Positions 18,158-24,697 of a DNA stretch of 64,000 nt are shown one piece after another (the first letter of the stretch is position 1; every line of letters starts with the position of its first letter). A program made the position numbers and the translations under genes. The notes below the pieces were generated by a model. That model worked only from the letters and a program-made list of their open reading frames with translations. It was not told where the DNA came from and did not search any database. This stretch comes from an uncultured Bacteroidota bacterium. GTDB taxonomy: Bacteria; Bacteroidota; Bacteroidia; Flavobacteriales; Flavobacteriaceae. The stretch lies in assembly GCA_902584445.1 (NCBI GenBank), contig CACHZY010000001.1, positions 1 through 64,000 on the forward strand, in the 5' to 3' direction.

Positions 18158-18574
18158 ATGAATTTATTAAAAAGACAAAACCCCGCTTTTACCTCTTTAT
18201 TTGATGACTTGATCTTTAATCAAGATTGGAACAATCAAAATTTATCCCTACCAGCAGTAAATATTATTGAGGCAGATGACCATTTTGATGTTCAATTAGC
18301 TACACCTGGTATGAAAAAATCTGATTTTCAAATAGAAGTAGATGAGGGGGTGTTGATCATTTCCTCCGAAACAGTAACTCAGTCTAATGAGACCGAAACC
18401 AGTTTTACTCTTAAGGAGTTTGGTAACCATTCGTTTAAACGCTCATTTAATATTCCAGATACTATTTATGTAGACAAAATAACTGCTGCATACAAAGAAG
18501 GGATTTTAACGGTAAGTTTACCAAAAAAAGAGGAAGCCTTACCGCAACCCAAAAAATTGATTTCCATAAACTAG
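18158..18574 (+). CDS. Small heat shock protein, Hsp20/alpha-crystallin family
   Basis: 138 residues. After a short N-terminal arm ('FTSLFDDLIFNQDW') comes the alpha-crystallin domain, about residues 30-135, with 'PAVNIIEADDHFDVQLATPGMKKSDFQIEVDEGVLIISSE' and the conserved 'YKEGILTVSLPK' end. Such proteins form oligomers and hold unfolding proteins without ATP under heat or other stress. Monocistronic: weak promoter upstream, strong hairpin directly downstream. Confidence 0.94.
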   Translation: MNLLKRQNPAFTSLFDDLIFNQDWNNQNLSLPAVNIIEADDHFDVQLATPGMKKSDFQIEVDEGVLIISSETVTQSNETETSFTLKEFGNHSFKRSFNIPDTIYVDKITAAYKEGILTVSLPKKEEALPQPKKLISIN

Positions 18575-18596
18575 ATTAATTAATTGGTTTGTTTGG

Positions 18597-18630
18597 AAAA
18601 GCTTGGTAATTTATTTTGCCAAGCTTTTTT
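18597..18630 (+). terminator. Rho-independent terminator between hsp20 and uvrB
   Basis: A 10-bp perfect stem AAAAGCTTGG / CCAAGCTTTT with a 12-base loop, followed by further T residues on the + strand. It is 22 bases after hsp20, and the T-run touches the stop codon of the convergent uvrB. The AAAA at its left end would give TTTT on the other strand, so it may also end uvrB transcription. Confidence 0.85.
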
Positions 18631-20620
18631 ATTCTAATTGATTTTGTAATGACTTTATTTCATCTCGTAAACGGGCTGCTTCTATAAAATCAAGATCCTT
18701 AGCTGCTTTTTCCATTTCTTTTCTCGAAACCCTAATTTTCTTCTCAATTTGATCTTTTGTCAAAAAACGGTTCTTTGCCTCCGCTACCTTCCGCTCACTT
18801 AGTTCTTGAGCAAATGTGGCAATAGAATTTTTTGAAAGGGCATTATCTAGAGATTTATTGAGAGCAGTCGGCGTTATTTTATTTTTTAGATTGTAAGCGT
18901 GCTGCTTATTGCGTCGGTAGTTTGTCTGGTCAATGGTTTTTTGCATGCTTTTGGTAATATTATCCGCATACATTATAGCTTTTCCATTGACATTTCTCGC
19001 AGCCCTGCCGACCGTTTGTGTCAATGAACGATGACTTCTGAGAAAACCTTCTTTATCTGCATCTAAGATCGCTACTAATGAAACTTCAGGTAAATCCAAA
19101 CCTTCCCTAAGAAGATTGACACCTACCAAAACATCAAAGAGTCCCTTTCTCAAATCTTGCATGATTTCTACTCTTTCTAATGTATCGACATCACTATGGA
19201 CGTAACGACATCTAATATTTAGTCTACTTAAATATTTAGTCAATTCCTCTGCCATTCTTTTGGTAAGTGTTGTTACTAGTGTACGTTCGTCTTTTTCGAC
19301 TCTTTGCTGAATTTCTTCTATTAAGTCATCAATTTGGTCTAGACTAGGTCGAATTTCAATTTCGGGATCCAGTAGACCTGTCGGTCGAATAACTTGTTCA
19401 ATATAAACACCTTCTGTTTGTTTAAGTTCATAATCAGCTGGAGTAGCACTTACATACAAAACTTGATTTTGTAGTATTTCAAACTCTTCAAATTTTAATG
19501 GTCGGTTATCCATAGCAGCAGGAAGTCGGAAACCGAAATTTACAAGGTTTTCTTTTCTACTGCGATCTCCTCCATACATGGCATGAACCTGAGATATAGT
19601 GACATGACTTTCATCTACAACCATTAAGTAATCATTTGGGAAATAGTCTAATAAGCAAAACGGTCGCGTCCCTGGGTCTCTTCCGTCCAGATAGCGTGAG
19701 TAATTTTCTATACCTGAACAATAACCTAGTTCTCTTATCATTTCTAGATCAAATTCTGTTCGCTCATGAAGTCTTTTTGCCTCTAAAAAACTACCTATAG
19801 ATTTAAAATAATCGACTTGTTTTGTCAAATCATCTTGAATTTCTGTAATAGCATTTTGAAGAATATCTGGAGAAGTAACAAACATGTTGGCAGGAAAAAT
19901 TTTAAGACTGTCGTAATTCTCTAAAATGCGATTTTCAATAGGATCAAAGGCCTCTATATCCTCTATTTCATCTCCAAAAAAATGTAGTTTAAAGGCAATA
20001 TCTGCATATCCAGGAAAAATATCGAGAATATCACCGTTTACCCTAAAGTTACCACGATTAAAATCTCCAGTGGTTCTTGAATATAAACTTTGCACCAGTT
20101 GGTAAAGTAATTTTGTTCTTGAAACTACTTGATCTTTTTCTATCGTAATAACATTTTTTTCAAATTCAACTGGATTACCAATCCCATAAAGACAGGATAC
20201 TGAGGCAACAACTAATACATCTCTTCTCCCGGAAAGTAGAGAAGAGGTAGTGCTTAATCGCAACTTTTCAATTTCCTCGTTAATGGAAAGATCTTTTTCA
20301 ATATAAAGACCACTGCTAGGAATGTAGGCCTCTGGCTGGTAATAATCATAGTAAGAAACAAAGTACTCGACGGCGTTATCTGGAAAAAATTGCTTGAATT
20401 CAGAATATAACTGCGCGGCAAGGGTTTTATTGTGTGCCAAAACTATCGTAGGGCGTTGCAATTCTTTTATGGTATTGGCAACGGTAAATGTCTTTCCCGA
20501 ACCAGTTACCCCTTGAAGTGTTACGTGTTTTTCTCCTTCGGAAAAACTATTAACAATTTGTCTAATTGCCTCGGGTTGGTCACCTGTGGGAAAAAAATCT
20601 GATTCAAGATTGAATTGCAT
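18629..20620 (-). CDS. uvrB: Excinuclease ABC subunit B
   Basis: 663 residues, the standard UvrB length. Walker A 'GVTGSGKT' at 37-44, beta-hairpin 'YFVSYYDYYQPEAYIP' (damage probing) near residue 86, helicase motif 'LREGLDLPEVSLVAILDADKEGF', and a C-terminal UVR motif 'EMEKAAKDLDFIEAARLRDEIKSLQNQL' that binds UvrC. It loads on damaged DNA with UvrA and recruits UvrC. uvrA and uvrC are not in the window. The promoter box lies only 4 bases before the ATG. Confidence 0.98.
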   Translation of the reverse strand: MQFNLESDFFPTGDQPEAIRQIVNSFSEGEKHVTLQGVTGSGKTFTVANTIKELQRPTIVLAHNKTLAAQLYSEFKQFFPDNAVEYFVSYYDYYQPEAYIPSSGLYIEKDLSINEEIEKLRLSTTSSLLSGRRDVLVVASVSCLYGIGNPVEFEKNVITIEKDQVVSRTKLLYQLVQSLYSRTTGDFNRGNFRVNGDILDIFPGYADIAFKLHFFGDEIEDIEAFDPIENRILENYDSLKIFPANMFVTSPDILQNAITEIQDDLTKQVDYFKSIGSFLEAKRLHERTEFDLEMIRELGYCSGIENYSRYLDGRDPGTRPFCLLDYFPNDYLMVVDESHVTISQVHAMYGGDRSRKENLVNFGFRLPAAMDNRPLKFEEFEILQNQVLYVSATPADYELKQTEGVYIEQVIRPTGLLDPEIEIRPSLDQIDDLIEEIQQRVEKDERTLVTTLTKRMAEELTKYLSRLNIRCRYVHSDVDTLERVEIMQDLRKGLFDVLVGVNLLREGLDLPEVSLVAILDADKEGFLRSHRSLTQTVGRAARNVNGKAIMYADNITKSMQKTIDQTNYRRNKQHAYNLKNKITPTALNKSLDNALSKNSIATFAQELSERKVAEAKNRFLTKDQIEKKIRVSRKEMEKAAKDLDFIEAARLRDEIKSLQNQLE

Positions 20621-20624
20621 ATTG

Positions 20625-20655
20625 CAAAATTAAAGTTTAAATACTCATTCCACAA
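20625..20655 (-). promoter_or_regulatory. Putative uvrB promoter (TTG-N20-TAATTTTG)
   Basis: On the minus strand, TTG (20655-20653) and an exact TAATTTTG (20632-20625) are 20 bases apart. The box ends 4 bases before the uvrB ATG, so transcription would begin at or within a few bases of the start codon, giving a leaderless or nearly leaderless mRNA. Confidence 0.6.
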
Positions 20656-20690
20656 CATTAATTATTATTAAGCCTGAATGACAATTAGGT

Positions 20691-20722
20691 TTGGATGAAT
20701 TCAGAATAAGGTGTTATTTTTG
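20691..20722 (+). promoter_or_regulatory. Putative promoter (TTG-N21-TATTTTTG) of the kinase-like gene
   Basis: TTG at 20691-20693 and an exact TATTTTTG at 20715-20722 with 21-base spacing, ending 14 bases before the GTG start at 20737. It is back-to-back with the uvrB promoter in a 116-base divergent gap. Confidence 0.6.
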
Positions 20723-20736
20723 AAAAAAGTTAAATT

Positions 20737-21798
20737 GTGAAAGAAAAATTAATTTCGAAAAAAAAACCTTTTTTTTCAATTTCCAAAGAGTTGTCACTTT
20801 TTTTAAAAAAGTATGATCGTTGGATGGACATTTCAATATGTTATGACGACCTATTACGTTTTTCAGGTTCCGTTACTGTCTATGATAAAAATGATGAGGA
20901 TACTCTTTGGGTTAGAGTTTATTATTCTGATTCTGACCGAGAAGAAATAGATTTTAATTTAAAAACGATATACACTTCTCTTCACTCTGATGGTAATATT
21001 TCTTCTTTACCTGACCTAAATATTGATGCAATTGATTACTGCACCTTTGGAAATTCAAAACCCTTTAGGATAAAAATCCGAAATATTTTAAACGATAATT
21101 TCACCTATTTCTACGTTAAAAAAACCGATGCTTCAAGGGTTTATGGATTGGAATTTGAGCATATACTTTCTCCATATAACCTAAATTATATGGTCAATAG
21201 TGATACATTAGTTGAGGAGCATATTTCTGGTATTCCTGGGGATATTTTTATTAAAGATTATTTATCGGATTGCACTTCATCAGAAAAAGCTCAAATTGCA
21301 AAAGAATATGTAAAATTCAATGAGCGTTGCATGATTAGGCTACTTGGTGATATGCGTGCTTATAATTATGTTGTGATTCCTATTCACGATTTTGATCACG
21401 TAATCTATCGAATCAGAGCCATCGATTTTGATCAACAAAGTTTCGAAGGAAAGTTATCTGTTTATCGGCCTCAGTTTTTTAAAGAAAATCACCCACTAAT
21501 TAAGGTTGTTAAGGAGAAACTAAATCATGAATCAATTATTCAATATAAAATTGAAGAACGTTCTATTCTTTCCCGAAGATTAATCAATTCAGGAAATCGT
21601 ATTGATTTTTTGATTTCGATTATGAAAAATGATGTACTCTCAACTGCTGAAAATTTGGAGCAACTTAAAAACGAGATTTTTGTTTTCACCAATGATCCTG
21701 CTTTTAAAGAAAGCCAATCCATGGGTGAGTTGATGCAGGCCGCATTTGATTATACACGAAAAAATTATGAAAATGTTAGCCTAAGTGATTTGCTCTAG
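20737..21798 (+). CDS. Conserved hypothetical protein with protein-kinase/APH-like motifs
   Basis: 353 residues from a GTG start; no signal peptide or membrane segment. I do not recognise a named family, though I believe similar proteins occur in other flavobacteria. The middle of the protein reads like a kinase or aminoglycoside-phosphotransferase core in the right order: 'YFYVKK' (possible beta-3 lysine, 128/129), 'RVYGLEFEHI' (possible alpha-C glutamate, 139/141), 'TLVEEHISGIPGD' (hinge-like, 157-169), 'LLGDMRAYN' (Asp205, Asn210, like HxDxxxxN) and 'RAIDFDQQ' (Asp230, like DFG). The C-terminal 100 residues look helical. It starts divergently from uvrB and its stop overlaps the convergent pRiA4b-like gene by 4 bases. 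Fold and ATP use are inferences. Confidence 0.7.
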   Translation: MKEKLISKKKPFFSISKELSLFLKKYDRWMDISICYDDLLRFSGSVTVYDKNDEDTLWVRVYYSDSDREEIDFNLKTIYTSLHSDGNISSLPDLNIDAIDYCTFGNSKPFRIKIRNILNDNFTYFYVKKTDASRVYGLEFEHILSPYNLNYMVNSDTLVEEHISGIPGDIFIKDYLSDCTSSEKAQIAKEYVKFNERCMIRLLGDMRAYNYVVIPIHDFDHVIYRIRAIDFDQQSFEGKLSVYRPQFFKENHPLIKVVKEKLNHESIIQYKIEERSILSRRLINSGNRIDFLISIMKNDVLSTAENLEQLKNEIFVFTNDPAFKESQSMGELMQAAFDYTRKNYENVSLSDLL

Positions 21799-22268
21799 TA
21801 AAAATTGTCATAATCATCTTCATCCGTTTTTAAATCATCGCTTAGATCATTTGATCCCCCAAATTCCTTATTTGGTGGAGTTTCAGGAACTTCACCATGG
21901 GTAAATATTAAACTTGGGTATCCTTTAGATACTTCTTTTTGAGCAATTTCAATTAACTCAACATAAAAGGTCCAAAGATTTAGAAAATCATAAACGTAGA
22001 TTAAACGATTTTCTGATTCAGAAAGGATTTTTTCTAAGGGTTTATCATTCAAAGGCTTTTCCCCTAAACCCATATCTAACAATGGCATTTCCTCTCCTTG
22101 GTTCCATTGCTCATCAGAACGGTAAAAAGAGGCCATTTCATTACCTGCAAAACCAAAAGATTGGGACAACGCATCATGAAGTTCCTCTAAGCTTGAACTT
22201 GACTCAATTTCAAAGTCTCGGATAACATCTTCCTCAGTATCCAAAATGGCTCTCATTCTATATATCAT
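21795..22268 (-). CDS. Plasmid pRiA4b ORF-3-like / IS1096 TnpR-like family protein
   Basis: 157 residues. 'YRMRAILDTEEDVIRDFEIESSSSLEELHDALSQSFGFAGNEMASFYRSDEQW' matches the start of the PRiA4_ORF3 family (named after a plasmid ORF and an IS1096 passenger), whose function is unknown. The C-terminus 'SDDLKTDEDDYDNFY' is very acidic. Despite the name, nothing mobile surrounds it: no inverted repeats or transposase. It is the last gene of a minus-strand run after ctaA (7-base gap) and overlaps the kinase-like gene by 4 bases. Family call fairly firm; role unknown. Confidence 0.85.
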   Translation of the reverse strand: MIYRMRAILDTEEDVIRDFEIESSSSLEELHDALSQSFGFAGNEMASFYRSDEQWNQGEEMPLLDMGLGEKPLNDKPLEKILSESENRLIYVYDFLNLWTFYVELIEIAQKEVSKGYPSLIFTHGEVPETPPNKEFGGSNDLSDDLKTDEDDYDNFY

Positions 22269-22275
22269 AAAATTA

Positions 22276-23277
22276 TTATTTTACTATTATTCTAAATATA
22301 AATAAAGATTGTGCTCCAAACAAAAGGGCGGCGATAATCAAATGTAATGGTTGTGAACTGAAAGGAAAGTCCAGATAAAACATTAAAATTCCAGTAAAAA
22401 TTTCTAAACCAATAAGTCCAAGTATTTGATTGAAAATCCTTAGGTTGAGATTTATTTTACGTAACATCCAAAATAAAGTCAGGTGAACTGCAAGAACTAT
22501 TAGGGATAAACTTCGGTGGAAATAAAATTTCAGTGGAGCTGGATCAAGCCATTGGCTAGCTTGTAGATGCATTTTTAAATCGACAAATTGTCTTACTTGG
22601 GTTCCTAAGCCAATTTGGAAAAGGGTAAGCACTACAGCGAAGATCGCAAGTATTTTCATTAATTGACTAGCAGGTATTGGGGTTATTTTTCTTTGACTAA
22701 TGAACAATAGGATTATTAAACCTAATACGATAAGTAATGCCATAACCATATGAATAGTAATTCGGTATGGCAATAAATTAGAATCGACTACTGTTTTTCC
22801 AAGCCAAGCCTGAAGAACCATTGCCATCAAAATTAAAAATGAAATAATTGGTGTAATTTTCTTTTTTTTCTTCAACAAAAATGATTGTACGGTCATAACG
22901 AGAACTGCTAGCCCAGCTAAGGCTCCCAACAATCTGTTTAGGTACTCGATCCATGTATGATATGGATTAAATAAGGCATAGTCATGTTGAGTGTAAAACC
23001 CCCAATTTTTTGGATTATAATCAAACCTGGAGTTAAAATCACTTTTGGCAACTCGAAGCTCCTCATCTAAAATAATTACTTGCCCCTTTAAGTATACGTG
23101 ATTGGGTTTCCAGTCAAGCTGAGATCTCTCGGTAGGAGGTATCCAATATCCAAAACATTTGGGCCAGTCAGGACAGCCCATTCCACTTCCGGTCATACGA
23201 ACAATTGCTCCAGCTGTGATCACTAAATAAACAATGATCAAGCTAAATTTAACCGATTTTATAAAACTATTCTCCAT
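22276..23277 (-). CDS. ctaA: Heme A synthase (COX15/CtaA family)
   Basis: 333 residues, about eight membrane helices. The N-terminal 'VYLVITAGAIVRMTGSGMGCPDWPKCFGYWIPP' and 'WIEYLNRLLGALAG' are characteristic of the family; conserved histidines for heme occur in 'ITIHMVMALL', 'FYFHRSLSLI' and 'QPLHLIIAAL'. It oxidises heme O to heme A for aa3-type cytochrome oxidase, pointing to aerobic respiration. The start overlaps the 3' end of cca by 11 bases, so the two are translationally linked. The rest of the oxidase cluster (ctaB, coxABC) is not here. Confidence 0.94.
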   Translation of the reverse strand: MENSFIKSVKFSLIIVYLVITAGAIVRMTGSGMGCPDWPKCFGYWIPPTERSQLDWKPNHVYLKGQVIILDEELRVAKSDFNSRFDYNPKNWGFYTQHDYALFNPYHTWIEYLNRLLGALAGLAVLVMTVQSFLLKKKKKITPIISFLILMAMVLQAWLGKTVVDSNLLPYRITIHMVMALLIVLGLIILLFISQRKITPIPASQLMKILAIFAVVLTLFQIGLGTQVRQFVDLKMHLQASQWLDPAPLKFYFHRSLSLIVLAVHLTLFWMLRKINLNLRIFNQILGLIGLEIFTGILMFYLDFPFSSQPLHLIIAALLFGAQSLFIFRIIVK

Positions 23278-24697
23278 TGGTCACTAAACCTATTTCGTTA
23301 CCTTTTCTTAGCATTAAATTAAATGCTGCTTCATAATCATTGGGAATTTCGCCTTCCAAAATAGCCTCTTTAATTGCCTCTTTTATCACACCAATCTCTT
23401 TACACGGTTTTAAGTTAAAATGTCTCATGATCATTTCACCTGTTACTGGAGGTTGAAAATTTCTAATACGATCTCTTTCTTCTACTTCAGTTATCTTTTG
23501 TCTTACAATTTTAAAGTTGTTGTGATATCGCTTAAAACGAGTTGGGTTTTTTGTTGTGATATCAGCTTCACAGAGGGTAATTAAATCTTCTAATAAATCC
23601 CCAGCATCAAACACCAAGCGCCTTACCGCTGAGTCTGAAACGATGTCTTCCGAAATAATAATAGGTCTTGAACTCATCATTACAAGCTTTTGAACGTATT
23701 TCATTTTTTCATTCAATGGCATTTTTAATCTTTTAAAAAGCTTGTAAACCATTTTTGAGCCGACGAATTCATGTCCATGAAAAGTCCATCCTATTTTTTG
23801 GTGGAATTTTTTAGTGGGAGCTTTACCGATATCATGAAGTAAGGCCGCCCACCGAAGCCACAAGTTATCTGATCTTATACATAAATTGTCTACAACCTCC
23901 AGGGTATGGTAAAAATTATCTTTATGTTTTTGCCCCTCAATTTCTTCGATACCTTTAAGATTAACCAATTCTGGGATTATTTTTTCTAGTAATCCGGTTT
24001 GCTCCAATAACAGATAACCTACAGAGGGTATTTGGGTCATCAAAATTTTATTTAGTTCATCAACGATTCGCTCACTGTTAATTATTGATAAGCGATTTAC
24101 ATTTTCTTTAATTGCATTTAATGATCGGTTCTCAATTTTGAATTTTAGTTGAGCAGCAAATCGAATTGCGCGCAACATCCTAAGAGGGTCATCAGAATAA
24201 GTAATTGAGGGATCTTGAGGTGTTTTGATGACACCATTTTTCAAATCTTGCAATCCATTGAACGGATCAATTAGTTCACCGATATTTTTTGGATTTAGAC
24301 TCACTGCCAGTGCATTAATGGTAAAGTCTCTTCTTTTTTGGTCGTCTTCAAGCGTTCCTGAAAATATTTTTGGATTTCTACTTTCTCGAGAATAGGATTC
24401 CTTTCTGGCACCGACAAATTCTATGGTAATTCCTTCCCATTGAATCATTGCAGTTCCATAAGATTTAAAAATTTTTATGGGACTGGCGTTGGTTAGTTTT
24501 TTTTGTATTACCTGCGCTAATTCAATACCTGATCCTATAGCTACTATATCGATATCTTTAGCCCTTTCAGTTCCTAGGAGGTGGTCTCTTACAAAACCTC
24601 CTACAAGATAAGTTTCTATACCCAGTTCCTTTACACTTTGAAGAAGTACTTCAAAAATTTTTTGCTGCAGAACACCATGGAAATTATTATTTAACAT
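23267..24697 (-). CDS. cca: CCA tRNA nucleotidyltransferase with HD domain
   Basis: I start it at the ATG giving 'MLNNNFHGVLQQKIFEVLLQ' (476 residues), one base after the stop of the upstream tsaC-like gene; the ORF-track start 13 codons earlier overlaps that gene. Nucleotidyltransferase head: 'ETYLVGGFVRDHLLGTERAKDIDIVAIG' with catalytic DxD, then 'DDPLRMLRAIRFAAQLKF'. A C-terminal HD domain has 'RWAALLHDIGKAPTK'. It adds or repairs the 3' CCA of tRNAs; the HD part may act as a phosphohydrolase. It lies between tsaC and ctaA in one minus-strand operon. Confidence 0.94.
   Translation of the reverse strand: MLNNNFHGVLQQKIFEVLLQSVKELGIETYLVGGFVRDHLLGTERAKDIDIVAIGSGIELAQVIQKKLTNASPIKIFKSYGTAMIQWEGITIEFVGARKESYSRESRNPKIFSGTLEDDQKRRDFTINALAVSLNPKNIGELIDPFNGLQDLKNGVIKTPQDPSITYSDDPLRMLRAIRFAAQLKFKIENRSLNAIKENVNRLSIINSERIVDELNKILMTQIPSVGYLLLEQTGLLEKIIPELVNLKGIEEIEGQKHKDNFYHTLEVVDNLCIRSDNLWLRWAALLHDIGKAPTKKFHQKIGWTFHGHEFVGSKMVYKLFKRLKMPLNEKMKYVQKLVMMSSRPIIISEDIVSDSAVRRLVFDAGDLLEDLITLCEADITTKNPTRFKRYHNNFKIVRQKITEVEERDRIRNFQPPVTGEMIMRHFNLKPCKEIGVIKEAIKEAILEGEIPNDYEAAFNLMLRKGNEIGLVTNGE

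Follow-up and report, generated by a model that had tools for sequence, protein, structure and literature searches.

The gene at 20737–21798 of the window (the whole 64,000-nucleotide stretch of DNA analysed here, from an uncultured member of the Flavobacteriaceae) very probably encodes the founder of an unnamed protein-kinase-like (PKL) family, whose motif style is closest to that of the APH/choline-aminoglycoside kinases (PF01636, CAK). Judged from its conserved residues and a predicted structure, the protein most likely binds Mg-ATP and transfers phosphate to a cytosolic substrate. We consider the kinase-like fold highly probable and active phosphotransfer, for which the argument comes from conserved sequence, probable. 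A small molecule is somewhat more likely than a protein as the substrate.

The gene and its conserved residues

Translation of the open reading frame places every motif cited in a preliminary description of this DNA at its cited position: K128/K129, E139/E141, EEHISGIPGD at 160–169, GDMRAYN at 204–210 (D205/N210) and IDFDQQ at 229–234 (D230/D232). The spacing from K128 to E139/E141 is 11–13 residues, and that from N210 to D230 is 20. The start codon position is shared with orthologues, as GTG or ATG. The gene and its parts are as follows.

20737..21798, plus strand: kinase-like gene, 353 aa, GTG start, stop TAG
20737..21015, plus strand: N-terminal segment, residues 1–93; R28, Y36, W58 and Y79 nearly or fully invariant
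21016..21123, plus strand: predicted N-lobe strands b1 (94–101), b2 (110–116) and b3 (121–129); loop G105-N106-S-x-P109-x-R111; invariant K128
21130..21168, plus strand: predicted helix 132–144 in the alpha-C position, carrying E139 and E141
21205..21243, plus strand: strand 157–161 and hinge E160-E-H162-I-x-G165-I-P-G-D169, from model and alignment
21343..21366, plus strand: putative catalytic loop L203-G204-D205-M206-R/H-x-x-N210; low pLDDT at 203–208
21421..21438, plus strand: I229-D230-F231-D232-Q233-Q234, by likeness a DFG-like metal-binding motif, from model and alignment

A Tudor-like Pfam match (PF21743) to residues 41–73 (20857–20955; E 1.1e-4, below the cut-off, seen in 11 of 56 members) is probably spurious.

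Protein searches, which covered Bacteroidota, found the family gene in 238 of 301 Flavobacteriaceae genomes, nearly always as a single copy, and in 92 of 346 genomes phylum-wide, other classes included. A second match occurs in a few genomes (L179 (G388:C3), G062, G177 and G279); the one in G388, at only ∼35% identity, is a possible diverged paralogue. Among homologues, identity to the window protein drops to about 34–40%, and the most distant full-length orthologue groups lie at ∼38–45%.

Despite this divergence, 26 positions are identical in all 178 aligned homologues: R28, W58, Y79, C102, N106, P109, R111, K128, R134, G137, P146, E160, H162, G165, F194, G204, D205, M206, N210, D230, F231, D232, Q233, Y243, P245 and N251. 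The expectation that Lys128, Asp205, Asn210 and Asp230 would be invariant among orthologues was thus borne out. E139 and E141 are each kept in 177 of 178 homologues, position 203 (two before D205) is Leu in 177, and G105 is kept in 174 and replaced by Ala in 4. K128, rather than its neighbour, is the conserved lysine, since K129 is variable (116/178). Eighteen members carry His at position 207, mostly as GDMHSGN or a close variant, an APH-style loop, where the window protein reads GDMRAYN; distant members read LLGDMHSGNF(V).

A motif expression that we tuned on the family itself recovered 179/179 members and 0/644 unrelated neighbouring ORFs. Its performance on known kinases is poor, and relaxing it brought in 27/644 unrelated ORFs. 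We do not use it as proof of a kinase because it works for the family and not for known kinases. On the alignment evidence the ordered motif set is not a product of chance, and the weight lies with conservation and not with the motif by itself.

The preliminary description had left room for a pseudokinase. This is unlikely because no expected catalytic position is degraded in any homologue; all are invariant.

Predicted structure

We predicted the structure with AlphaFold2 from 70 sequences (the window protein and related loci, with homologues from other classes left out). The model has a pLDDT of 75.6 and a pTM of 0.74. After the three N-lobe strands and helix 132–144 come b4 (151–153), b5 (157–161) and the hinge, then helices 168–178 (aD) and 181–201 (aE), the catalytic loop, b7 (210–218), b8 (221–229), D230 and a long, helical C-lobe. 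K128 ends strand 121–129, E139/E141 lie in helix 132–144, and the hinge follows strand 157–161; D205/N210 stand before, and D230 after, the strand pair 210–218/221–229. The pLDDT is below 50 over 203–208 and 231–245, the catalytic loop included.

Foldseek comparison of this model with the PDB returned 116 chains at E≤0.001 (best E 3.8e-5, probability 1.00). All 50 of the chains listed are protein kinases or pseudokinases, and there is no APH among the matches listed. Against BFVD, named kinases account for 16 of the 18 matches at E≤0.001; the other two are nidovirus polyproteins. The likeness does not extend to the global packing of the two lobes, however, as TM-scores are 0.23–0.31 (query-normalised) and the rmsd is mostly 14–20 Å. 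The model therefore bears out the kinase/APH-like reading of the preliminary description in element order and in its kinase matches, alongside the invariance of D205, N210 and D230, but not in the packing of the lobes. Overall, a kinase fold is strongly suggested by the prediction.

The N-terminal segment (∼90 residues, W58 and Y79 invariant) appears to be part of this fold. A core model of residues 86–347 fell to a pLDDT of 61.0 and lost b7–b8; it gave no PDB match at E≤0.001, and 50/50 listed chains were still kinases. From the drop in pLDDT on removing residues 1–85, the segment appears to be required for the fold; beyond this hint we take no evidence from the shortened model.

Kannan et al. 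(2007) list ten key residues of the PKL superfamily (PMC1821047), and six have counterparts here. G52, the b1–b2 loop glycine, corresponds to G105 between strands 94–101 and 110–116; K72, the ATP-binding lysine of b3, to K128; and E91 of helix C to E139 or E141. The catalytic D166 and N171, five residues on, correspond to D205 and N210, and the metal-binding D184 after b8 to D230, directly after strand 221–229. One residue is replaced: H164, two before the catalytic Asp, is Leu in this family (L203). The remaining three (P104, H158 and D220) are not placeable without superposition. Accepted PKL members also have single key residues replaced, the H164 equivalent included (PMC1821047).

Taken together, we infer the following chemistry. 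Mg-ATP would be bound between the two lobes, with K128, held by E139 or E141, positioning the phosphates and the E160–H162 hinge holding the adenine. D205 would act as catalytic base; N210 and D230, perhaps with D232, would bind metal; and phosphate would be passed to a cytosolic substrate.

Relation to named kinase families

No named kinase family claims the protein. Pfam kinase families gave no match for the window protein, nor among the matches listed for 56 divergent members (E≤1), PF01636, Pkinase (PF00069) and HipA_C (PF07804) among them. NCBIfam and PHROGs likewise gave no match to a kinase family, PADLOC gave no match, and a profile search of PDB sequences with the family gave no kinase. 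Profile–profile comparison with phylum-matched APH, HipA and Pkinase sets yielded nothing significant (probability 1.2% for APH), although the best alignments to the APH and HipA sets placed D205/N210 on the catalytic Asp/Asn. The test lacks the power to speak against a relation, since it also missed accepted superfamily pairs (APH–HipA 5%, HipA–Pkinase 1.9%). Nor did PF00454 (PI3_PI4_kinase) match the family, any of 61 genomes or the locus in its own genome. We found no name for the family in the literature and no relatives in phages, plasmids or viral contigs.

The closest likeness is to APH. Both share the order K, E, hinge ExxxG, GDxHxxN and IDF, and the LLGDMHSGNF of distant members recalls the APH motif HGDxHxxN; the family protein is likewise a single domain with no apparent sensor. 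By contrast, the family has L-G-D where APH has H-x-D, separates Asn from the metal Asp by 20 residues rather than about 16 (in the APH examples compared), carries the conserved N-terminal segment, and gave no PF01636 match at any sensitivity tried. With protein kinases (PF00069) it shares the predicted element order, the D-x4-N catalytic loop and all the listed Foldseek PDB chains, but it lacks HRDxK and DFG, shows no profile similarity and has the longer Asn-to-Asp spacing (20 versus 13 in the Pkinase examples compared). HipA resembles it in the alignment of D205/N210 on DDHxxN, which was not significant, and differs in its metal motif (PAYD versus IDFD). The loop and IDFD also resemble the GDRHxxN loop and IDFG motif of PI3/PI4 kinases and PIKKs, a likeness that serves only as a lead; these kinases are absent from the structural matches listed, as from the profile matches.

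None of PF01636, PF07804, PF00069 and PF00454 finds a match in the window's own assembly (69% complete), so the family protein may be among the few kinase-fold proteins of a small genome.

Promoter

The preliminary description gave the gene its own well-spaced promoter. The -7 box of that promoter is well supported by relatives, whereas the full -33/-7 pair is found in few.

20715..20722, plus strand: TATTTTTG, bacteroidetes-type -7 box (TAnnTTTG), 14 nt before the start codon
20691..20693, plus strand: TTG, a candidate -33 element 21 nt upstream of the -7 box, with weak conservation

Of 79 relatives, 61 have TAnnTTTG no more than 60 nt from the start and 23 have TATTTTTG itself, the latter against 0.9% of random 60-nt windows; 12 have the full pair (background 1.6%). 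In many relatives the -7 box is fixed 13–14 nt before the start. If transcription begins a few nucleotides past this box, the 5' leader would be very short or nearly absent. Rfam gave no match over 18500–23500.

Genomic neighbourhood

In the window the kinase-like gene stands alone on its strand, with uvrB upstream and divergent and one gene converging on it.

21795–22268, minus strand: PRiA4_ORF3 (PF07929) gene, converging on the kinase-like gene with overlapping stop codons (21795–21798)

Across Flavobacteriaceae the recurring neighbours are PRiA4_ORF3 (87 loci), COX15 (81 loci) and uvrB (57 loci, 42 of them directly adjacent), and an ABC-transporter ATPase-like gene holds the adjacent place in 52 loci. 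None of these neighbours is kept outside Flavobacteriaceae, and on present evidence uvrB is therefore not a functional partner. The gene does adjoin uvrB, as first described, but as a divergent and lineage-limited neighbour. A place in flavobacterial signalling, the other part of that proposal, is unsupported: the loop looks closer to APH than to Ser/Thr kinases, family members occur in other classes of the phylum too, and the uvrB neighbourhood is of the limited kind just described.

In 13 of the 15 loci examined from other classes the gene lies 0–114 bp downstream of bshA, in the same orientation, and these 13 span seven family labels. Four sampled bshA neighbours score as BshA equivalogs.

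L150, L157, L161, L164, L165, L166, L171, L172 and L174–L178: bshA directly upstream, same strand, 0–114 bp
L270:4977–7706, Flavobacteriaceae, same strand: bshA 531 bp downstream of the kinase-like gene, with no ORF of at least 90 aa between

In 80 Flavobacteriaceae loci with flanks of up to 5 kb, bshA was not found near the gene. Among the 346 genomes, bshA scores over the cut-off in 335 and bshC in 332, and no family-positive genome lacks either. Because both are near-universal, this co-occurrence is uninformative; and because the kinase-like gene is present in 92 genomes, its protein is not required for the bacillithiol pathway. A proximity to bshC in one genus, at a constant 60–66 kb, is plain regional synteny.

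In four further loci (L151, L152, L154 and L173) the kinase-like gene is followed, within 44–488 bp, by one that resembles a class II fructose-bisphosphate aldolase. No common pathway emerges. In L153 and L163 the gene sits between a flavodoxin-like gene and an RseC/SoxR-reducing-like gene, with gene order conserved on both sides. The bshA adjacency is the only functional lead; it is weak, and the link may be incidental.

Alternative explanations

Could the protein have an unrelated fold, with its conserved residues in kinase-like order by chance? The lack of profile-level similarity to any kinase family and the weak superposition are in keeping with this. But five spaced invariant residues lie in the right elements, distant members carry the APH-like loop, the PDB chains listed by Foldseek are kinases only, and the profile test misses even accepted relatives; we regard chance as improbable. 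Equally improbable is a kinase-fold enzyme with other chemistry (AMP transfer as in SelO, or glutamylation) or an ATP-binding scaffold. PKL folds are known to carry out such chemistry, as in SelO (PMC12663964). The IDFD motif and LGD loop of the present family are unusual, which also speaks for this explanation. Against it, the SelO catalytic loop differs from the family's, and the complete K-E-D-N-D set, of standard polarity and invariant, predicts ordinary phosphotransfer.

If the protein is indeed a kinase, its target may be asked after. A real signalling kinase acting on protein, like HipA or the Ser/Thr kinases, is rather unlikely, though less so than the two explanations above. The protein kinases and pseudokinases that fill the listed Foldseek chains, the long helical C-lobe after D230, and the fit of single copy and strong conservation with a housekeeping regulator are in its favour. 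However, the Foldseek ranking says little about substrate because the PDB is rich in protein kinases; moreover, GDM(R/H)xxN lacks the lysine of HRDxKxxN, IDFD replaces DFG, the ExHxxG hinge is APH-like, neither translation nor predicted structure of the 353 residues reveals an apparent sensor or transmembrane domain, and the Pkinase and HipA profiles do not match. A role in bacillithiol synthesis, whether by modifying a precursor of this thiol or by regulating BshA, is supported by the bshA loci of the other classes and of one Flavobacteriaceae genome, and by the absence of family-positive genomes among those without bshA or bshC. Against this stand the much narrower distribution of the kinase-like gene and the 80 Flavobacteriaceae loci with no bshA nearby, and we know of no kinase step in the bacillithiol pathway. 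We think such a role quite improbable, only a little less so than chance resemblance. The preferred reading remains an APH-style PKL enzyme.

Significance

It is rare for a protein this widely kept within a phylum to be dispensable, yet the family has no name among the models of Pfam, NCBIfam or PADLOC. Its interest is that of an unnamed, conserved and testable enzyme: point mutants of K128, D205 and D230 make the kinase reading directly testable. As a kinase it would add to the PKL superfamily a member family marked by its LGD loop and IDFD metal motif. A bolder proposal, which we put forward tentatively and consider doubtful as it stands, is that of an active kinase family, with one copy in most Flavobacteriaceae and in other Bacteroidota classes, that phosphorylates a core metabolite, such as one of thiol or sugar metabolism, in a step that pathway maps do not yet show. 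If kinase activity is real, these maps lack a core phosphorylation step of an abundant marine bacterial group.
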